This document shows positions 1 to 43,934 of a stretch of 44,038 bases of DNA, piece after piece. A program made the translations under genes and the position numbers. The stretch spans positions 1 to 44,038 of the forward strand of contig DUMM01000024.1 of the NCBI GenBank assembly GCA_012839845.1, in the 5' to 3' direction. The stretch comes from Bacillota bacterium. Its GTDB lineage: Bacteria > Bacillota > Limnochordia > DTU087. Position 1 is the stretch's first letter, and each line of letters begins with the position of its first letter. The notes beneath the pieces are model-generated. The model was not told the origin of the DNA. It saw only the letters and a program-made list of their open reading frames with translations, and ran no database searches.

Positions 1-546
1 CAGCGCCTTATGGAGGCCGGTGCAGTCGTAATTCCCATCATGTCCGAGACGGCGGCTTCGCAGGATACCCGATTTGGCAGGGCGGCAGAGTTTGTTGAAA
101 AGATTGAGAAGATGACCGGCCGAAAGGTCATAACATCCATTGTGGAGGCGGAGCCCATCGGTCCGCAAAGGCTCCTGGACCTGATGATTATTGCGCCGTG
201 TACAGGCAATACCCTGGCTAAGCTTGCCAATGGGATTACCGATTCAGCTGTTCTGATGGCTGCCAAAGCCCAGCTTCGCAACGAGCGCCCAGTCCTGATA
301 GCAATCTCGACCAACGACGGTCTCAGCAACAACGCCAAGAACCTCGGTATGCTGCTCAACAGGAAGCACGTCTACATGGTTCCCTTTGGTCAGGATGATC
401 CCTTCGGCAAGAGCAGTTCACTGGTGGCAGATATGACTTTAATTTTGCCGGCAGCTGGCATGGCCCTGGAGGGCAAGCAGGTGCAGCCTATACTGGTGCC
501 TGTAAGCTCCACGGCGGATCAGAGAGAGATGCTGACGGTTAGATAA
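1..546 (+). CDS. dpaB: Dipicolinate synthase subunit B (3' part)
   Basis: Flavoprotein-like subunit of dipicolinate synthase (SpoVFB), which with DpaA makes the dipicolinic acid packed into endospores. The reading frame is open from the first base of the window, so the 5' end lies outside; 181 residues are visible against about 200 in the family, so only the extreme N-terminus is missing. Diagnostic stretches are TRFGRAAEFVEKIE, the IIAPCTGNTLAKLANGITDS segment and FGQDDPFGKSS near the C-terminus. It is followed 22 bp later by asd, the same order as in B. subtilis spoVFB-asd-dapG-dapA. This placement links dipicolinate output with its precursor pathway. The identification is secure. Confidence 0.95.
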   Translation, partial: QRLMEAGAVVIPIMSETAASQDTRFGRAAEFVEKIEKMTGRKVITSIVEAEPIGPQRLLDLMIIAPCTGNTLAKLANGITDSAVLMAAKAQLRNERPVLIAISTNDGLSNNAKNLGMLLNRKHVYMVPFGQDDPFGKSSSLVADMTLILPAAGMALEGKQVQPILVPVSSTADQREMLTVR

Positions 547-3804: not shown

Positions 3805-3837
3805 AAAAAGCTATGACAGCGAAGGAGTGGTTATTGT

Positions 3838-5505
3838 TTGGGAAATAGAAAAGAGCCAGTCTCCCTAATTCCCCTGGGCGGCGTGGGGGAAATAGGGAAG
3901 AATATGTGGGTGTTGGAATACCAAGATGACATAATCGTGATTGATGCTGGGGTGATGTTTCCGGAAGAAGAAATGCTGGGCATTGACCTGGTGATTCCGG
4001 ACATCACCTATTTGGCAGAGAATAAGTACCGGGTAAGGGGGATCTTCCTCAGCCACGGCCATGAGGATCACATCGGTGCTGTGCCCTATCTGCTGCAGGT
4101 GCTCAATGCTCCGATTTACGGTACCCGTCTCACCTTGGGGCTTCTCCAGGGTAAATTGGAGGAACACGGTTTGGCCTCCAGCGCAGACTTGAGGGAGATA
4201 AAGGCAGGAGGCAGTGTCAAAATCGGTGCCTTGAGGATTGAGTTTATCCACGTCAATCACAGTATAGCCGATGTGGTTGCCTTTGCTATCCACACCCCCC
4301 ACGGAGTGATAGTCTACTGCAGCGATTTTAAGCTGGACCAAACGCCCATCGGCGGCCCTGTGTTGGACATGCACCGGTTTGCCGAACTGGGTCGAGAGGG
4401 CGTTCTGCTGCTGATGTCCGACAGTACCAATGCCGAACGGCCTGGGTACACGTTGTCGGAGCGGGTGGTGGGAGAGACCTTTGATCAAGTGTTCGACGAT
4501 GCTCCAGGCCGGATATTGGTGGCTACGTTTTCCAGCAATATTCATCGCATTCAGCAGATTATTGATGCGGCGGCTAAACACGGGCGAAAAGTGGGGATTG
4601 TCGGCCGCAGCATGGTTAACACTGTCACAATTGCCAGCGAGCTCGGCTATCTGAAGGTGCCGCCGAAGATCATGGTGGATATCGACGAACTGGACAAGTA
4701 CCCGGCCAATAAGGTAGTCATTATCACCACAGGCAGTCAAGGAGAACCGATGGCAGCCTTGACCCGGATGGCTATGGCTGAGCACCGCAAGGTGGACATC
4801 GTTCCTGGTGATACAGTGATCATTTCGGCGATGACGATTCCCGGCAACGAGAAACTGGTGGGCAAAACCATCAATCACCTATTCCGCCTGGGAGCACGGG
4901 TCATTTACCAGGCTGTTTCGGGGGTCCACGTTTCCGGTCATGCCAGTCAAGAGGAATTGAAGCTGCTTATCAACCTGTGCCGGCCCCGGTATTTTATGCC
5001 CATCCACGGCGAATACAGGATGTTGGTTCGGCATGCTGAGCTGGCCGAGATGGTGGGAATCCCCGCCAAGAACATCCTCATCTGCGACATCGGCGACGTG
5101 GTGGAGATTCGTTCCAACGGCATTGTCAAAGCGGGCAAAGTAACTGCCGGTCAAGTGCTGGTGGACGGGTTGGGTGTCGGCGATGTCGGTAACATCGTTC
5201 TCAGGGATAGAAAACAGTTGGCTCAAGACGGAATCCTCATCGTCGTTACTGCCATAGACAAGCAGTCGGGAACCGTAGTCGCAGGACCGGATATTATCTC
5301 CCGGGGCTTTGTCTACATGCGGGAATCTGAAAAGCTCATCGAGGAAGCTAGGGAAGAAGTGAAGCGAATTCTTCAGGAGTGCGAAGCCGAAGGCATCAGC
5401 GAGTGGAACTTGATCAAGGGCAATGTGAAAGACGGCTTAACTCAGATGCTTTACCAAAAGACAAAGCGAAGGCCTATGATCATGCCCATCATCATGGAAG
5501 TCTGA
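3838..5505 (+). CDS. rnj: Ribonuclease J
   Basis: Metallo-beta-lactamase/beta-CASP exo- and endoribonuclease for mRNA decay and rRNA maturation. At 555 residues it has exactly the usual size. The zinc motif HGHEDH is at residues 73-78, followed by the HVNHSIADV and DFKLD metal-binding segments, a GRSM beta-CASP segment and [10 protein letters not shown]. The C-terminal KTKRRPMI segment resembles B. subtilis RNase J1, although the operon place after dapA is that of rnjB (ymfA) in B. subtilis; whether the genome has a second copy is unknown. The start is a TTG at 3838 with GGAG at 3824-3827. Its stop overlaps a possible ATG of the next frame (TGATG at 5503-5507). Confidence 0.95.
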
Positions 5506-5597
5506 TGGCGGCTCATAAAAAGACCAGCGGTAGTTATACTAATGGGGAGCAGTGCTGCAGTATCCCCGCAGGGAATGGGATAAGGATAACGGGAAGG

Positions 5598-6524
5598 ATG
5601 AATTGGGTGGACAAGCCGCTGGGAACAGAGAAAGACGCAGGCCGGCCGGGGATGGGCTTATCCGGCCTTGACGGTTTGGAGCCGCACACTGCAGGCGAAG
5701 GGTGGGTACCGGAGATAGGAGCTGACCCGGAGGTGCCCAGTGAAATTCCTGCCCATGGTCAGCTGGCTGCCCTGGAAAGCATCAAGCAGGTAGGTCAGAC
5801 CGCAGTGCCGGTGTCGGCCATTTCTCCGATTCACTGCGTCTCCATTGTGGGGCAGGTGGAAGGTCATATTTTGCTTCCGCCTCGCAACAAGACCACCAAG
5901 TATGAACACATTATACCGCAGCTGGTGGCCGTTGAGCAGAGTCCGGAGATACAGGGAGTCTTGATCATACTCAACACGGTAGGCGGCGATATTGAAGCTG
6001 GGTTGGCTATCGCCGAGATGATCAAGGGATTGTCTAAACCCAGCGTATCTTTGGTTCTGGGGGGCGGACACTCCATCGGCGCTCCCATAGCTGTGGCGGC
6101 AGATTACAGCTTTATCGCCGAGTCAGCCACCATCACTATCCATCCTATCAGGTTAACCGGCCTGGTGGTAGGTGTTCCCCAAACCTATGAATACCTGGAC
6201 AAAATGCAGGATAGGGTGGTGCGCTTTATCGTGGAGAACAGCTCCATTGCCGAGCAGAAGCTGCGGGAGCTGATGTTCAGGACCGGAGATTTGATGCGGG
6301 ACATCGGCACCGTGCTCATCGGCGCTGAAGCAGTGAGGGTGGGATTGATCGATGAAGTTGGGGGTTTAGCCCAAGCTCTGGCTAAGCTGCAGGAGATGAT
6401 TGCAGAAAAGGGCGACGGCGGTATTTCAGCCCGGAAGCCCCAGCTTGCTGTCTGGCCGCTGATTCCTCGGCAAGAAGACCTGCAGCCTCAAGGCAATGTG
6501 CCCGGCCCGGGAGGCACCCAATAA
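5598..6524 (+). CDS. tepA: ClpP-family serine protease, TepA-like
   Basis: Homolog of B. subtilis TepA (YmfB), a ClpP-fold protease linked to translocation and degradation of spore-related proteins. From the ATG at 5598 it has 308 residues. The catalytic serine lies in GGGHSIGAP (Ser159) and the histidine in [11 protein letters not shown] (His182); [18 protein letters not shown] is the substrate-groove region. The first 60 or so residues are low in conservation. The frame stays open back to an ATG at 5505 that overlaps the RNase J stop; I prefer 5598 because AAGGAT lies about 10 bp upstream, but the start is uncertain. The place between RNase J and a YlzJ-like gene matches B. subtilis. Confidence 0.85.
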
Positions 6525-18371: not shown

Positions 18372-18640
18372 TGACTGAGTGCAAAAGCGATGAAGGGGAC
18401 AGTAGGAAAGCCAGGAGTGGGTACAGCGAGCCGGGAGAGGTGGAAGCCCGGTCCTACAGGTTTCGCCGAAGATCACCCCGGAGCTGCCAGGTGAAATGCT
18501 CACTTAAGAGCTGATTAGCCTCGGCCGGTGCATGCCCGTTACTGCATGTCAGAGCTGGACGCAGGCGCGCCGCAGGCGGCCTGGGTCAAATGGGGTGGTA
18601 CCGCGGGTCCTCTCGTCCCTATGGGATGAGAGGATTTTTA
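18372..18640 (+). promoter_or_regulatory. T-box leader controlling ileS (isoleucine specifier)
   Basis: tRNA-sensing leader RNA. The hallmark T-box GTGGTACCGCGG is at about 18595-18606, just before the terminator, and can pair with the 5' side of the terminator to form the antiterminator that reads the tRNA acceptor end. Stem I carries the GAGAGGTGGAAG apical segment (about 18435-18446). The GAAGATCACC stretch fits a specifier loop, with the isoleucine codon ATC at 18472-18474 followed by A. Uncharged tRNA-Ile is expected to let transcription into ileS continue. Confidence 0.92.
18608..18639 (+). terminator. Regulated terminator of the ileS T-box
   Basis: TCCTCTCGTCCC (18608-18619) pairs with GGGATGAGAGGA (18623-18634) around a 3-nt loop, followed by five T. 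Its 5' arm begins two bases after the T-box sequence, as expected for tRNA-dependent antitermination. Confidence 0.93.
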
Positions 18641-24251: not shown

Positions 24252-24866
<615 letters not shown>

Positions 24867-24870
24867 GCAG

Positions 24871-25164
24871 CTATACCTGCACTATTCGTTTGGGATCGTG
24901 GCGGGGCGATTGGTTTACCTTTTCAATGGCAGCCAGGATAGCCTGGAAGATATCCAGCTGCACCTGTTTGGACTGAAGCTCTACTCCGATGAGCGCACGG
25001 CCTGTGGAGGAAGCGGTGTACCTGCTGGGGAGCTGACTGGCGGCTAATGCTACAACGTCATCCCTGCACTGCCGGCATGAGCAGGCAAGGGCATCTCTGT
25101 GATTGGCCAGGTATCTTTCGACTTGGTACTGAACTTCCTCCAAAACGGAGTTGTGCACAGGCAT
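24871..25164 (-). CDS. comFB: ComFB-like protein
   Basis: A 97-residue protein of the ComFB family. The N-terminal NSVLEEVQYQVERYL and the central CSCRQCRDDVVALAASQLP, followed by SRYTAS, are the family signature, with Cys28, Cys30 and Cys33 suited to bind a metal. In B. subtilis comFB lies between comFA and comFC; here it stands alone. Recent work on cyanobacterial ComFB-type proteins reports binding of cyclic dinucleotides, so a signalling role is possible, but this is not shown for this protein. The start ATG (complement of 25162-25164) is preceded by AGGAGG at about 25172-25177. It converges on pyrR with four bases between the stops. Confidence 0.85.
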   Translation of the reverse strand: MPVHNSVLEEVQYQVERYLANHRDALACSCRQCRDDVVALAASQLPSRYTASSTGRALIGVELQSKQVQLDIFQAILAAIEKVNQSPRHDPKRIVQV

Positions 25165-25300
25165 TGCAGCATCCTCCTTTGTCGGAATGATTTATCCAAT
25201 AATTCGACACTTATGATACCGATTCCTTTCTCAACCTGGGTATGTCGATGCGAATGCGGCACCAAAAGGCGATAGCACACAACGCATTTGCCGGCAGGGA

Positions 25301-25330
25301 TTGACAGGCCCTGTGGACTTTAGCTACAAT
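25301..25330 (+). promoter_or_regulatory. Sigma-A promoter of the purH riboswitch transcript
   Basis: TTGACA (25301-25306), an 18-bp spacer and TACAAT (25325-25330). Transcription should start near 25337, right before the ZTP aptamer. The whole comFB-purH intergenic stretch (25165-25498) is accounted for by this promoter, the riboswitch and the comFB ribosome binding site. Confidence 0.88.
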
Positions 25331-25343
25331 AAAGGCAAAATTA

Positions 25344-25442
25344 AGCGTCGCCTGCGACTGGCGGATTGAGGTGGATAACCACCGGGGAGCAGGAGAGTGA
25401 CGATTAGCCGACCGCCTGGGCATTTGCGCTCAGGCGGTTTTT
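25344..25442 (+). promoter_or_regulatory. ZTP (pfl) riboswitch with intrinsic terminator
   Basis: The leader carries the ZTP aptamer core: GCGACTGGCG (about 25354-25363), a GGTGG/CCACC hairpin (25370-25382), the CGGGGAGC segment and the conserved CCGCCTGGGCA (25412-25422). The outer stem can form between CCTGC (25351) and GCAGG (25389). CCGCCTG (25412-25418) also pairs with CAGGCGG (25431-25437), followed by TTTTT, giving a terminator that competes with the aptamer pseudoknot. Binding of ZTP or ZMP, which rise when 10-formyl-THF is short, should turn on purH, the enzyme that uses both. Confidence 0.93.
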
Positions 25443-25498
25443 GCTGTTTGGAGCAAGCTTTATTCCTACAGAGACTCTTGCGAAAGGAGAGTGGAGAG

Positions 25499-27085
25499 AT
25501 GCGGATCCAGAGAGCTTTAATCAGTGTGTCCAACAAGGAAGGGATTGTTGAGTTTGCCCGGGGCTTGGCGGCTTTGGGCGTAGAGATCATCTCAACAGGC
25601 GGAACGTATGGGGTTTTGAGAGAAGGGGGCATAGACGTTACGCCGGTGCAGGACATCACCAAGTTTCCCGAGTGCCTAGGAGGAAGAGTGAAAACGCTTC
25701 ATCCCGCTGTCCACGCCGGTATCTTGGCTCGGCGGGACGTGCCGGAGCAGATGGCGGAACTGGAGACTTTGGGAATCAAGCCTATTGACCTGGTGGTGGT
25801 TAATCTGTATCCCTTCGCGGCCACGGTGGCTAAGGAGAATGTCACGCTGGATGAAGCTCTGGAAAACATCGATATCGGCGGTCCTACGATGATCCGGGCA
25901 GCAGCCAAGAACTTCCCGTCGGTGGCGGTGGTTGTCAATCCAAAGCGGTATTCTGAAATCCTTAAAGCCCTTGAGGAGGGCAACGGCACTTTGCCCCTGG
26001 AGCTGCGGCAGGAACTGGCAGTAGAGGCCTTCGGGCACACTGCGCAGTATGATTCCATGATTTACAGCTACTTGGCCCGGGAAAGCGGCCGGCTCAATGC
26101 TGCTCTCTGTTCAGATCAGCTGGACACAGCAGAGTTTCCCGCCCAGGGATTTATCCCTGTGGTGCTGCAGCAGAAGATGCGCTACGGCGAGAATCCCCAC
26201 CAAAAGGCTGCTTTTTACCGGGACGTTTATCCTCCCGCCGATTCCCTCTGCTGGGCAGAGCAGCTCCACGGGAAGGAGCTGTCCTTCAATAATATCAATG
26301 ATGCCGCTGCGGCAGTGGAGATGGCAAAGGTATTCGACCGGCCGGCGGTGGTGGCGGTGAAGCACGCGAATCCGTGCGGTTGGGCTGTAGCCGACACCCT
26401 GGCTGAGGCGTACCGCAAGGCCTACGAAGGCGACCCGGTGAGTATTTTCGGGGGAATTATAGCCTGCAACCGGACTCTAGACGAGGATACAGCCAGACAG
26501 ATGGCTGAGATCTTCTTGGAGGTGATTGTCGCTCCTGATTTTACCGATGAAGCGTTAGCGATCTTGACCCAGAAGAAGAACTTGCGGCTGCTGCGGCTAA
26601 AGGCCCTGGCCAATCCTCCCCAGGATAAGTGGTGGGATTGGAAGCGGGTTAAGGGCGGGTGGCTGGTGCAGGAGGCCGATCTTTCAGAGGACACGAGAGA
26701 CGCCTGGCAGGTGGTGACTGAAACAGCACCAGATGAGGATACATGGAAAGACCTGGAGTTCGGCTGGAAGACGGTCAAATATGTCAAATCCAACGCCATT
26801 GTAGTGGCCAAAGACGGCATGACCCTCGGCGTGGGTGCAGGACAAATGAACCGGCTGGAAGCGGCGAAGATCGCCTTAAGGCAGGCGGGTGAGAGGGCTG
26901 AGGGCGCCATTCTGGCATCGGATGCCTTCTTCCCCTTCGATGATGTGGTGAGGTTGGCAGCTGAGTACAAAATCAAAGCCATCATCCAGCCAGGGGGCTC
27001 TATCCGGGATCAGGATTCCATCGCTGCTGCCAACAAGGCCGGGATACCCATGGTATTCACCGGGCGCCGGCACTTCCGGCATTAA
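25499..27085 (+). CDS. purH: Bifunctional AICAR formyltransferase / IMP cyclohydrolase
   Basis: Last two steps of IMP synthesis: formylation of AICAR (ZMP) with 10-formyl-THF and ring closure. From the ATG at 25499 it has 528 residues. The N-terminal MGS-like cyclohydrolase domain (RALISVSNKEGIVEFARGL, STGGTYGVLREGG, GGRVKTLHP) is followed by the formyltransferase domain with GENPHQKAAFY, LSFNNINDAAAA, KHANPCG and DPVSIFGGI, ending QPGGSIRDQDSI. AAAGGAG precedes the start; an upstream open frame runs through the riboswitch terminator and is not coding. It stands alone, without other pur genes, under a ZTP riboswitch. Confidence 0.97.
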   Translation: MRIQRALISVSNKEGIVEFARGLAALGVEIISTGGTYGVLREGGIDVTPVQDITKFPECLGGRVKTLHPAVHAGILARRDVPEQMAELETLGIKPIDLVVVNLYPFAATVAKENVTLDEALENIDIGGPTMIRAAAKNFPSVAVVVNPKRYSEILKALEEGNGTLPLELRQELAVEAFGHTAQYDSMIYSYLARESGRLNAALCSDQLDTAEFPAQGFIPVVLQQKMRYGENPHQKAAFYRDVYPPADSLCWAEQLHGKELSFNNINDAAAAVEMAKVFDRPAVVAVKHANPCGWAVADTLAEAYRKAYEGDPVSIFGGIIACNRTLDEDTARQMAEIFLEVIVAPDFTDEALAILTQKKNLRLLRLKALANPPQDKWWDWKRVKGGWLVQEADLSEDTRDAWQVVTETAPDEDTWKDLEFGWKTVKYVKSNAIVVAKDGMTLGVGAGQMNRLEAAKIALRQAGERAEGAILASDAFFPFDDVVRLAAEYKIKAIIQPGGSIRDQDSIAAANKAGIPMVFTGRRHFRH

Positions 27086-42832: not shown

Positions 42833-43078
42833 CGGCAGCAGCCGCCTGGCTGGTCCAGGCAGCGAACCGGTTGAGCGAGGTGACCGGCCTATAATACGTA
42901 ACCTCGCCGGGATGCGACCGGATCATCCCATTCGCATACCTGGCTCCAGCCTGGGTATAGTATTGCCTTCCATACCGCGAAAAATAAATGCCAGTTTTTT
43001 CCTCCGAGTACCTGGGGCTACGCAGGAATCTCTGAACCAATGTAGAAAAAAGTTCCAATAGTCACACATTGCGGTGAA

Positions 43079-43096
43079 GACACCAGGTGTCTGGTG
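43079..43096 (+). promoter_or_regulatory. Overlapping palindromes upstream of spo0A
   Basis: GACACC-A-GGTGTC (43079-43091) is a perfect palindrome, and CACCAG...CTGGTG (43081-43096) is a second one sharing bases with it. They lie about 25-40 bp before the spo0A start and could bind a regulator; GAATT (43097-) next to them could belong to a sigma-H-like -10 element, but this is weak. Confidence 0.4.
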
Positions 43097-43118
43097 AATT
43101 GAGTATTAGGGGGCGAGG

Positions 43119-43934
43119 ATGATGTTAAAGATTCTGATTGCAGACAACAATGTAGGACTTTGCGAGACTCTTAACGCCTTTTTGGAAAGGCAGGAGGGAA
43201 TGGAGGTGGTGGGTATCGCCCACGACGGAGAAGAGACCCTCCAGCTGATAGAAGACCTAGAACCGGATGTGGTTCTGTTGGACATCACCATGCCCCTTCT
43301 CGACGGTCTGGGAGTCATGGAGCGGCTTGTTCAACTGAACCTGTTCAAAAGACCCAAGGTTATAGTGCTGACTGCCTTTGGTAGAGAGGATGTTATCCGG
43401 CGTTTCACCGACCTGGGCGCAGATTATTTTGTGGTCAAGCCCTTCGACCTCAATGTGCTGGCTGAGCGGATTCGCCAGTTCGCTGGTGAAGATGGCGATG
43501 AATCAGTGGTGAAGGAGGCCGACGGAGAATTAAGTTCCCAGTCCTCTCGGATGGCTGTGCGGCCAGCCATCAGCCGCGAGGCCCAGGTGACGGAATTGTT
43601 GCATAGAATAGGCATTCCGGCTCATTTCAAAGGGTACAACTACCTGCGGGATGCCGTGATGGTAGTAATTGAAGAGGAGGGCTTGTTTGGCGGTTCGCTG
43701 ACGAAGGAACTCTATCCGCGGTTGGCCCAGAAATACAACACAACTCCGGGAGGGGTAGAGGCGGCCATCCGCAATGCGGTGATCACCGCGTGGGAACACG
43801 GGAATAGGGCGTATCTTGAGGAGTTGACAGGCAGAACCAACAAGGGCCGCTTCCCCACCAACTCCCTGATAATAGCCAAGCTGGCTGACCAGATCAAGTA
43901 CAAAAGCCGGCTTGATAGCGTCAAGCTACTGTAG
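43119..43934 (+). CDS. spo0A: Sporulation master regulator Spo0A
   Basis: Response regulator that starts sporulation when phosphorylated; 271 residues. Receiver domain: phospho-acceptor Asp55 in VVLLDITMPLLDGL, switch Thr in VLTAFG, and Lys in VVKPFD. The acid pair that in B. subtilis is Asp-Asp reads Asp9-Asn10 here. The C-terminal Spo0A DNA-binding domain is typical (VTELLHRIGIPAHFKGYNYL, ITAWEHGNRAYLEELTG), but its recognition helix reads TTPGGVEAAIRNAV where B. subtilis has TTASRVERAIRHAI. The start is ATG at 43119 (or 43122) after GGGGGCGAGG. spoIVB, the usual upstream neighbour, is absent; rsmB lies upstream. Confidence 0.96.
   Translation: MMLKILIADNNVGLCETLNAFLERQEGMEVVGIAHDGEETLQLIEDLEPDVVLLDITMPLLDGLGVMERLVQLNLFKRPKVIVLTAFGREDVIRRFTDLGADYFVVKPFDLNVLAERIRQFAGEDGDESVVKEADGELSSQSSRMAVRPAISREAQVTELLHRIGIPAHFKGYNYLRDAVMVVIEEEGLFGGSLTKELYPRLAQKYNTTPGGVEAAIRNAVITAWEHGNRAYLEELTGRTNKGRFPTNSLIIAKLADQIKYKSRLDSVKLL

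Follow-up and report, generated by a model that had tools for sequence, protein, structure and literature searches.

A divergent stand-alone ComFB protein with a predicted zinc site and a putative sigma-H-type promoter in a lineage of Bacillota

The closest described systems are the ComFB protein of Bacillus subtilis and the cyanobacterial ComFB/CdgR proteins (Slr1970/Alr3277). For B. subtilis, PMC4381287 describes a zinc site (structure 4wai) made of a CxCxxC motif and a fourth ligand that can be Cys or His. The same source names E7 and N40 as dimer-interface residues, reports that the E7K variant was abnormal in solution, places the comF operon under ComK and raises a role as zinc or oxidation sensor; deletion of comFB left transformation unchanged in the tested conditions. 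The cyanobacterial proteins bind c-di-AMP and c-di-GMP (PMC12313861, PMC13075795), which confirms what a preliminary description of the DNA analyzed here had said of them. Mutants in the cyanobacterial gene lose transformation (PMC12313861), and the CdgR of Anabaena is active in its ligand-free state, part of its effect going through the transcription factor DevH (PMC13075795). What is on record on the role of ComFB in Firmicutes is this B. subtilis deletion with transformation unaffected; the family is common among them. With regard to sporulation, dRNA-seq in Sporomusa mapped SigH promoters in which AGGA and GAAT have a spacing of 17-18 nt, and the same paper counts spo0A among the established targets of SigH (PMC12456013).

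We have analyzed a window of 44,038 nucleotides (the whole stretch of DNA under study) in which one ORF of the minus strand codes, from an ATG start, for a protein of 97 aa (Table 1). This protein matched the Pfam ComFB profile (PF10719) with 52.9 bits (E 3.9e-14; cut-off 25) and the NCBIfam ComFB equivalog (NF052654) with 28.2 bits, where 120 are required. It is a member of the ComFB family, an assignment that we regard as virtually certain, without being the named equivalog of the NF052654 type. No second ComFB match appeared in the profile search of this genome, which resembles that of a spore former. A first AlphaFold2 model, built from 16 rows, had a pLDDT of 74.3 and a second one, from 42 rows, reached 86.7; Foldseek ranked 4wai and 8hja at the top with both. 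In VIA-align the better model was superimposed on B. subtilis ComFB 4wai with Z 12.5 (rmsd 1.8, 88 residues) and on the c-di-GMP-bound CdgR 8hja with Z 11.2 (rmsd 3.8, 90 residues), the next row being only at Z 4.5. We disregarded the weak rows (sigma-28 at Z 5.4 with the first model, nothing over 4.5 with the better one), as helical proteins commonly resemble each other to this extent. The structure prediction that had been proposed as a check, and the profile match, bear out the ComFB-type protein, and the CxCxxC motif noted in the preliminary description is indeed there as CSCRQC (C28, C30, C33). The gene is real and under purifying selection, with dN/dS between 0.05 and 0.15 in the 8 of 15 pairs that had measurable dS. 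A search of a plasmid collection gave three weak records for the 97-aa protein and none for the CdgR piece.

Table 1. Features of the comFB locus and of spo0A, in positions of the window
Feature	Position	Strand	Basis and remarks
pyrR, convergent neighbour	24282..24866	+	ends 4 nt before the comFB stop codon
comFB, 97 aa, divergent 'VELQ' ComFB subfamily	24871..25164	-	Pfam profile, fold, tree
P87-R88-H89, with H89 as predicted fourth zinc ligand	24898..24906	-	alignment; Cys or His at this place according to PMC4381287
Y49 to Q64, TASSTG loop and VELQ segment	24973..25020	-	alignment; G60 where most relatives have K/R
Predicted zinc-site cysteines C28, C30, C33 (CSCRQC)	25063..25083	-	16/16 rows; phylum 94/94, 93/94, 94/94
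Putative ribosome-binding site AAAGGAGG	25173..25180	-	read from sequence; precedes comFB; good match
Putative sigma-H-type element AGGAATC-N12-GTCGAAT	25202..25227	-	AGGA and GAAT 18 nt apart; conserved in family
Putative sigma-70-type promoter for purH, transcribed divergently from comFB	25301..25330	+	sole such site at 24800-25520
ZMP/ZTP riboswitch of purH	25344..25428	+	63.6 bits, gathering 39; outside the comFB unit
spo0A	43119-43934		TIGR02875, 279.6 vs 200 bits
Predicted helices of the ComFB protein	residues 6-21, 31-43, 53-63, 66-85		model

As the preliminary description stated, the gene is not beside comFA or comFC. Its neighbours are pyrR and purH, so that, unlike in B. subtilis, it does not form part of a comFA-comFB-comFC operon, and the best ComF(C)-like match in the genome (92 bits, below the cut-off of 233.55) is found in another contig (C103). 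comFB and purH are divergent and have one riboswitch-bearing spacer between them. Another leader, a T-box before ileS (97.6 bits, gathering 93), was seen at 18381-18623 of the plus strand of the window. The gene is single-copy in the 11 genomes of the family (its own and 10 relatives). Both flanks are visible in eight of these relatives, and there it is located between pyrR and purH; the other two, G001 and G005, show one flank only, as their contigs stop next to comFB. The distance from pyrR to comFB is about 1.5 kb in six relatives outside its own genus, and the two genes nearly touch within the genus. We read the ORF found between them in two relatives (L036 5061-6461, L038 7824-9086) and by eye it resembles a uracil permease. 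The arrangement is kept within the family only. In other relatives of the class the neighbours were a GGDEF gene (G012) or a gene that by eye resembles serine dehydratase (G054, G060). The G012 locus (L041) has a gene for a 437-aa protein with an intact C-terminal GGDEF at 3824-5137 (plus strand), tail to tail with comFB at 5291-5674 (minus strand). We considered the neighbour genes as a clue to function and rejected them, as no operon partner emerged and the neighbours differ outside the family; the opposite orientation of comFB also led us to abandon a link to the purine or pyrimidine genes.

What is new here is a sigma-H-type element before comFB, like the one found before spo0A. When the comFB-purH spacers of seven genomes were aligned, two conserved blocks appeared upstream of comFB and the remainder had diverged. 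On the comFB strand, the pattern AGGAA[AT][CT]-N11/12-RNCGAA is found at -54 to -69 of the gene in 11 of 11 family genomes, with a spacing of 17-18 nt between AGGAA and GAA. In its plain published form (AGGA-17/18-GAAT) the motif is no rarity in the window, with 4 found versus 3.1 expected. The strict pattern, which was defined after viewing the family sequences, has 12 matches over both strands of the family loci (228,785 bases), 11 of them before comFB and the other before spo0A, versus a mean of 0.5 and a largest value of 3 in Markov copies. The spo0A gene is located in the same window and its leader (43020-43119) contains AGGAATC-N11-GTAGAAA, conserved in three relatives. Actually, AGGAAT-N11-nnnGAA precedes spo0A in the four genomes examined (the window, G008, G009 and G010), GCAGGAAT and GAA being invariant over leaders that are otherwise divergent. 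The GAA is present in all 11 comFB elements and GAAT is complete in six of them and in none of the four before spo0A. On the comFB strand, the search of 24800-25520 gave no site of the sigma-70 type. Judging from this conservation, sigma-H-type control of comFB is likely, and the gene would probably be switched on at the start of sporulation, in contrast to the ComK control of the B. subtilis operon (PMC4381287). The link to development that had been suggested gains support because the element precedes comFB (11/11) and a similar one precedes spo0A (4/4); the support comes by a route that the preliminary description did not name, with the use of sigma-H predicted from the element. Among the matches listed in our literature search for ComFB with SigH none contained ComFB, and we make no claim of priority for the link.

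Over the wider phylum, a looser sigma-H pattern was found in 8 of 88 comFB upstream regions versus 2 of 119 upstream of other ORFs (Fisher p 0.020, the control ORF starts being taken as the first ATG), the other 80 comFB regions having none of the sigma-H patterns. They were also absent from the seven upstream regions of single-domain relatives of the class outside the family. The upstream regions of tandem ComFB genes add no support, with one sigma-H-like pattern in 17 versus 0.28 expected.

The reading that we prefer is that of a cytosolic regulator with the ComFB fold and a zinc site, belonging to a lineage-specific subfamily, which would be expressed from a sigma-H-type promoter and act as a dimer with a docking partner; to this combination as a whole we give about an even chance. 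Transcription would take place in stationary phase or at sporulation entry, from a promoter of the type common to spo0A, and would set the dose of ComFB. The protein would then, most likely and by analogy with CdgR on DevH in Anabaena, dock as a dimer on its partner. Cyclic dinucleotides may tune it, and such ligand control may be reduced, changed or lost because part of the interface that is kept in the cyanobacterial receptors is altered. By this analogy, the partner would be a regulator, met as sporulation begins, and the control by ligand would be weak, altered or absent. The family, the fold, purifying selection, the conserved place of the gene, the conserved element and the altered residues are observations; zinc binding, the dimer, the use of sigma-H, the timing and the partner docking of the window protein are inferred. 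If true, a conserved promoter of this type, in common with spo0A, would indicate sporulation entry as the place to seek a phenotype, and it would be the first regulatory context for a stand-alone ComFB.

In order to place the protein among its relatives we compared residues in 10 family rows, 94 phylum rows (30 best-scoring, 20 mid-range and 44 weaker or odd ones, hence not a random draw) and 62 cyanobacterial rows, which are the distinct sequences from the best 80 of 476 loci and hence close to CdgR. The duplicates L201 and L223 and the G001 gene, which runs off its contig, were left out of these counts and the tandem proteins were counted apart. Two surfaces behave differently. The presumed zinc ligands C28, C30, C33 and H89 are kept in 10/10 family rows, 7/7 single-domain rows of the class and 93-94 of the 94 phylum rows, and none of the sampled cyanobacterial rows keeps any of them. 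B. subtilis ComFB also has its fourth ligand in the C-terminal tail, a Cys there and a His here, and we take CxCxxC with H89 as a predicted zinc site. The preliminary description had mentioned the motif in proposing a candidate receptor. The motif is no sign of cyclic dinucleotide binding because the sampled cyanobacterial homologues have no zinc ligands (0/62), and its absence from the relatives of the proven receptors led us to discard it as such a sign.

Three other residues show the reverse pattern. E8 is found in 84/94 phylum and 62/62 cyanobacterial rows but in 0/10 family rows (L8 in the window); N43 in 80/94, 62/62 and 3/10 (S43 in the window); and K or R at position 60 in 73/94, 62/62 and 0/10 (G60 in the window). 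In the dimer interface of B. subtilis ComFB the counterparts of E8 and N43 are E7 and N40. Within the set N4, E7, D33, N40 and Y46 of that protein, E7 and N40 are replaced here by L8 and S43, the interface residues N5, D36 and Y49 (window numbering) being shared with both 4wai and 8hja. Possible stand-ins are E9, beside L8, and R56 (9/10 family rows). We do not propose a coupled loss of N43 and of K/R60, as several of the weaker phylum rows have S/T43 together with K/R60; the three residues at 8, 43 and 60 are likewise all missing in a distant clade, in six phylum rows. The lineage may have lost part of the nucleotide-binding surface of its cyanobacterial relatives. With the zinc site and the presumed ligand surface told apart in this way, a family-wide receptor claim becomes testable with matched proteins.

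These residues weigh on the best of the alternatives, a functional CdgR-type receptor for c-di-GMP and c-di-AMP that binds at the dimer interface. The preliminary description had proposed a candidate cyclic dinucleotide receptor, and held that a lack of binding together with missing ligand residues would speak against it. The latter is what we found in part, with the loss of E8, N43 and the basic residue at 60, their invariance in the sampled cyanobacteria serving as a proxy for the contacts in 8hja. The CdgR-like fold stands, the match to 8hja being made with the c-di-GMP-bound form, and the LP..Y...G loop with G55 is kept too. But the cyanobacterial protein has an N-terminal extension of some 60 residues and no zinc ligands, and CdgR was matched by profile only at E 0.0056. 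The cyclases looked for in the genome are present: GGDEF gave four strong matches and a weak fifth (three intact GGDEF and a fourth with GSDEF), there is one DAC-domain protein of 364 aa, DisA-like and beside a RadA-like ORF (both names by eye), and PilZ had three matches. These, and the tail-to-tail GGDEF gene of G012, would suit a receptor, but GGDEF was found in the genomes of 59 of 60 relatives and its presence says little. Taken together, a receptor of this kind is rather unlikely, and binding of cyclic dinucleotides at micromolar strength by the window protein is conceivable but doubtful. The receptor idea is possible but weaker than was stated in the preliminary description, and the developmental one is stronger.

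Two further explanations seem to us improbable to a similar degree. One is a zinc protein whose role is structural or redox only and which binds no small molecule; this fits the zinc ligands being the most strictly kept positions in the 94 phylum rows while the interface residues vary, and also the sensor role raised in PMC4381287; but a zinc ion with a structural task would be retained anyway. The other is a ComFB without ligand control: having lost the widely kept interface residues, the subfamily would be stuck in an active state like the ligand-free one of CdgR and would be dose-ruled by sigma-H along with spo0A, acting in development on a transcription factor of this lineage. As for competence genes, besides the ComF(C)-like gene below cut-off there is one ComEC match (ComEC is also in 59/60 relatives), and a motor of the PilB/ComGA type did not turn up in the draft genome, which is in 135 contigs and in which the absence of a gene is not proven. 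As no such motor was seen, a cyanobacterial-type role through type IV pili is unlikely. An accessory protein of DNA uptake, in keeping with the name of the family, is very unlikely. ComEC, the ComF(C)-like gene and the loss of transformation in cyanobacterial mutants favour it; the sole secretion-ATPase match (PF00437) over cut-off, which by eye resembles CpaF of Tad pili and not PilB/ComGA, and the unaffected B. subtilis deletion speak against it. This ATPase (C106:641-1465, L171) shares one open frame of 701 aa with a MinD-like N-terminal part, and the genome may have a pilus or secretion system of the Tad type.

The gene is stand-alone and not beside comFA/comFC, as had been said, but this is not special by itself, the family being present in 233 of 398 sampled genomes of the phylum and in 38 of 58 of the class. 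The distinctive thing is the lineage-specific subfamily and not the presence of ComFB. In a tree of 160 rows, which has 92 columns only and an unsettled bootstrap (0.985), the 10 family rows, the 7 single-domain rows of the class and the phylum row L191 form a group with support 98/96. This group is apart from B. subtilis ComFB, distant in the tree, from the tandem proteins and from cyanobacteria. ELQ at 62-64 was found in all 17 family and class single-domain rows; of the remaining aligned rows, none outside cyanobacteria has it.

The class also contains tandem proteins, alike in their ComFB domains and different in having two of them fused (L009, L011, L014, L019, L022, L024-L030, L138-L140, L004 and L210, plus L204 outside the class); G060 has a tandem gene together with a single gene of the window type. 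Domain 1 keeps the zinc ligands (C28 in 13/18). Domain 2 has G55 in 18/18, R60 in 16/18 and the Y..TxxG loop, with its cysteines mostly lost. It looks like a split of the two dimer roles between the domains. In other families of the phylum (L204-L209) the ComFB domain ends frames of 271-449 aa, the N-terminal part of which is of low complexity and rich in Pro, Glu and Ala.
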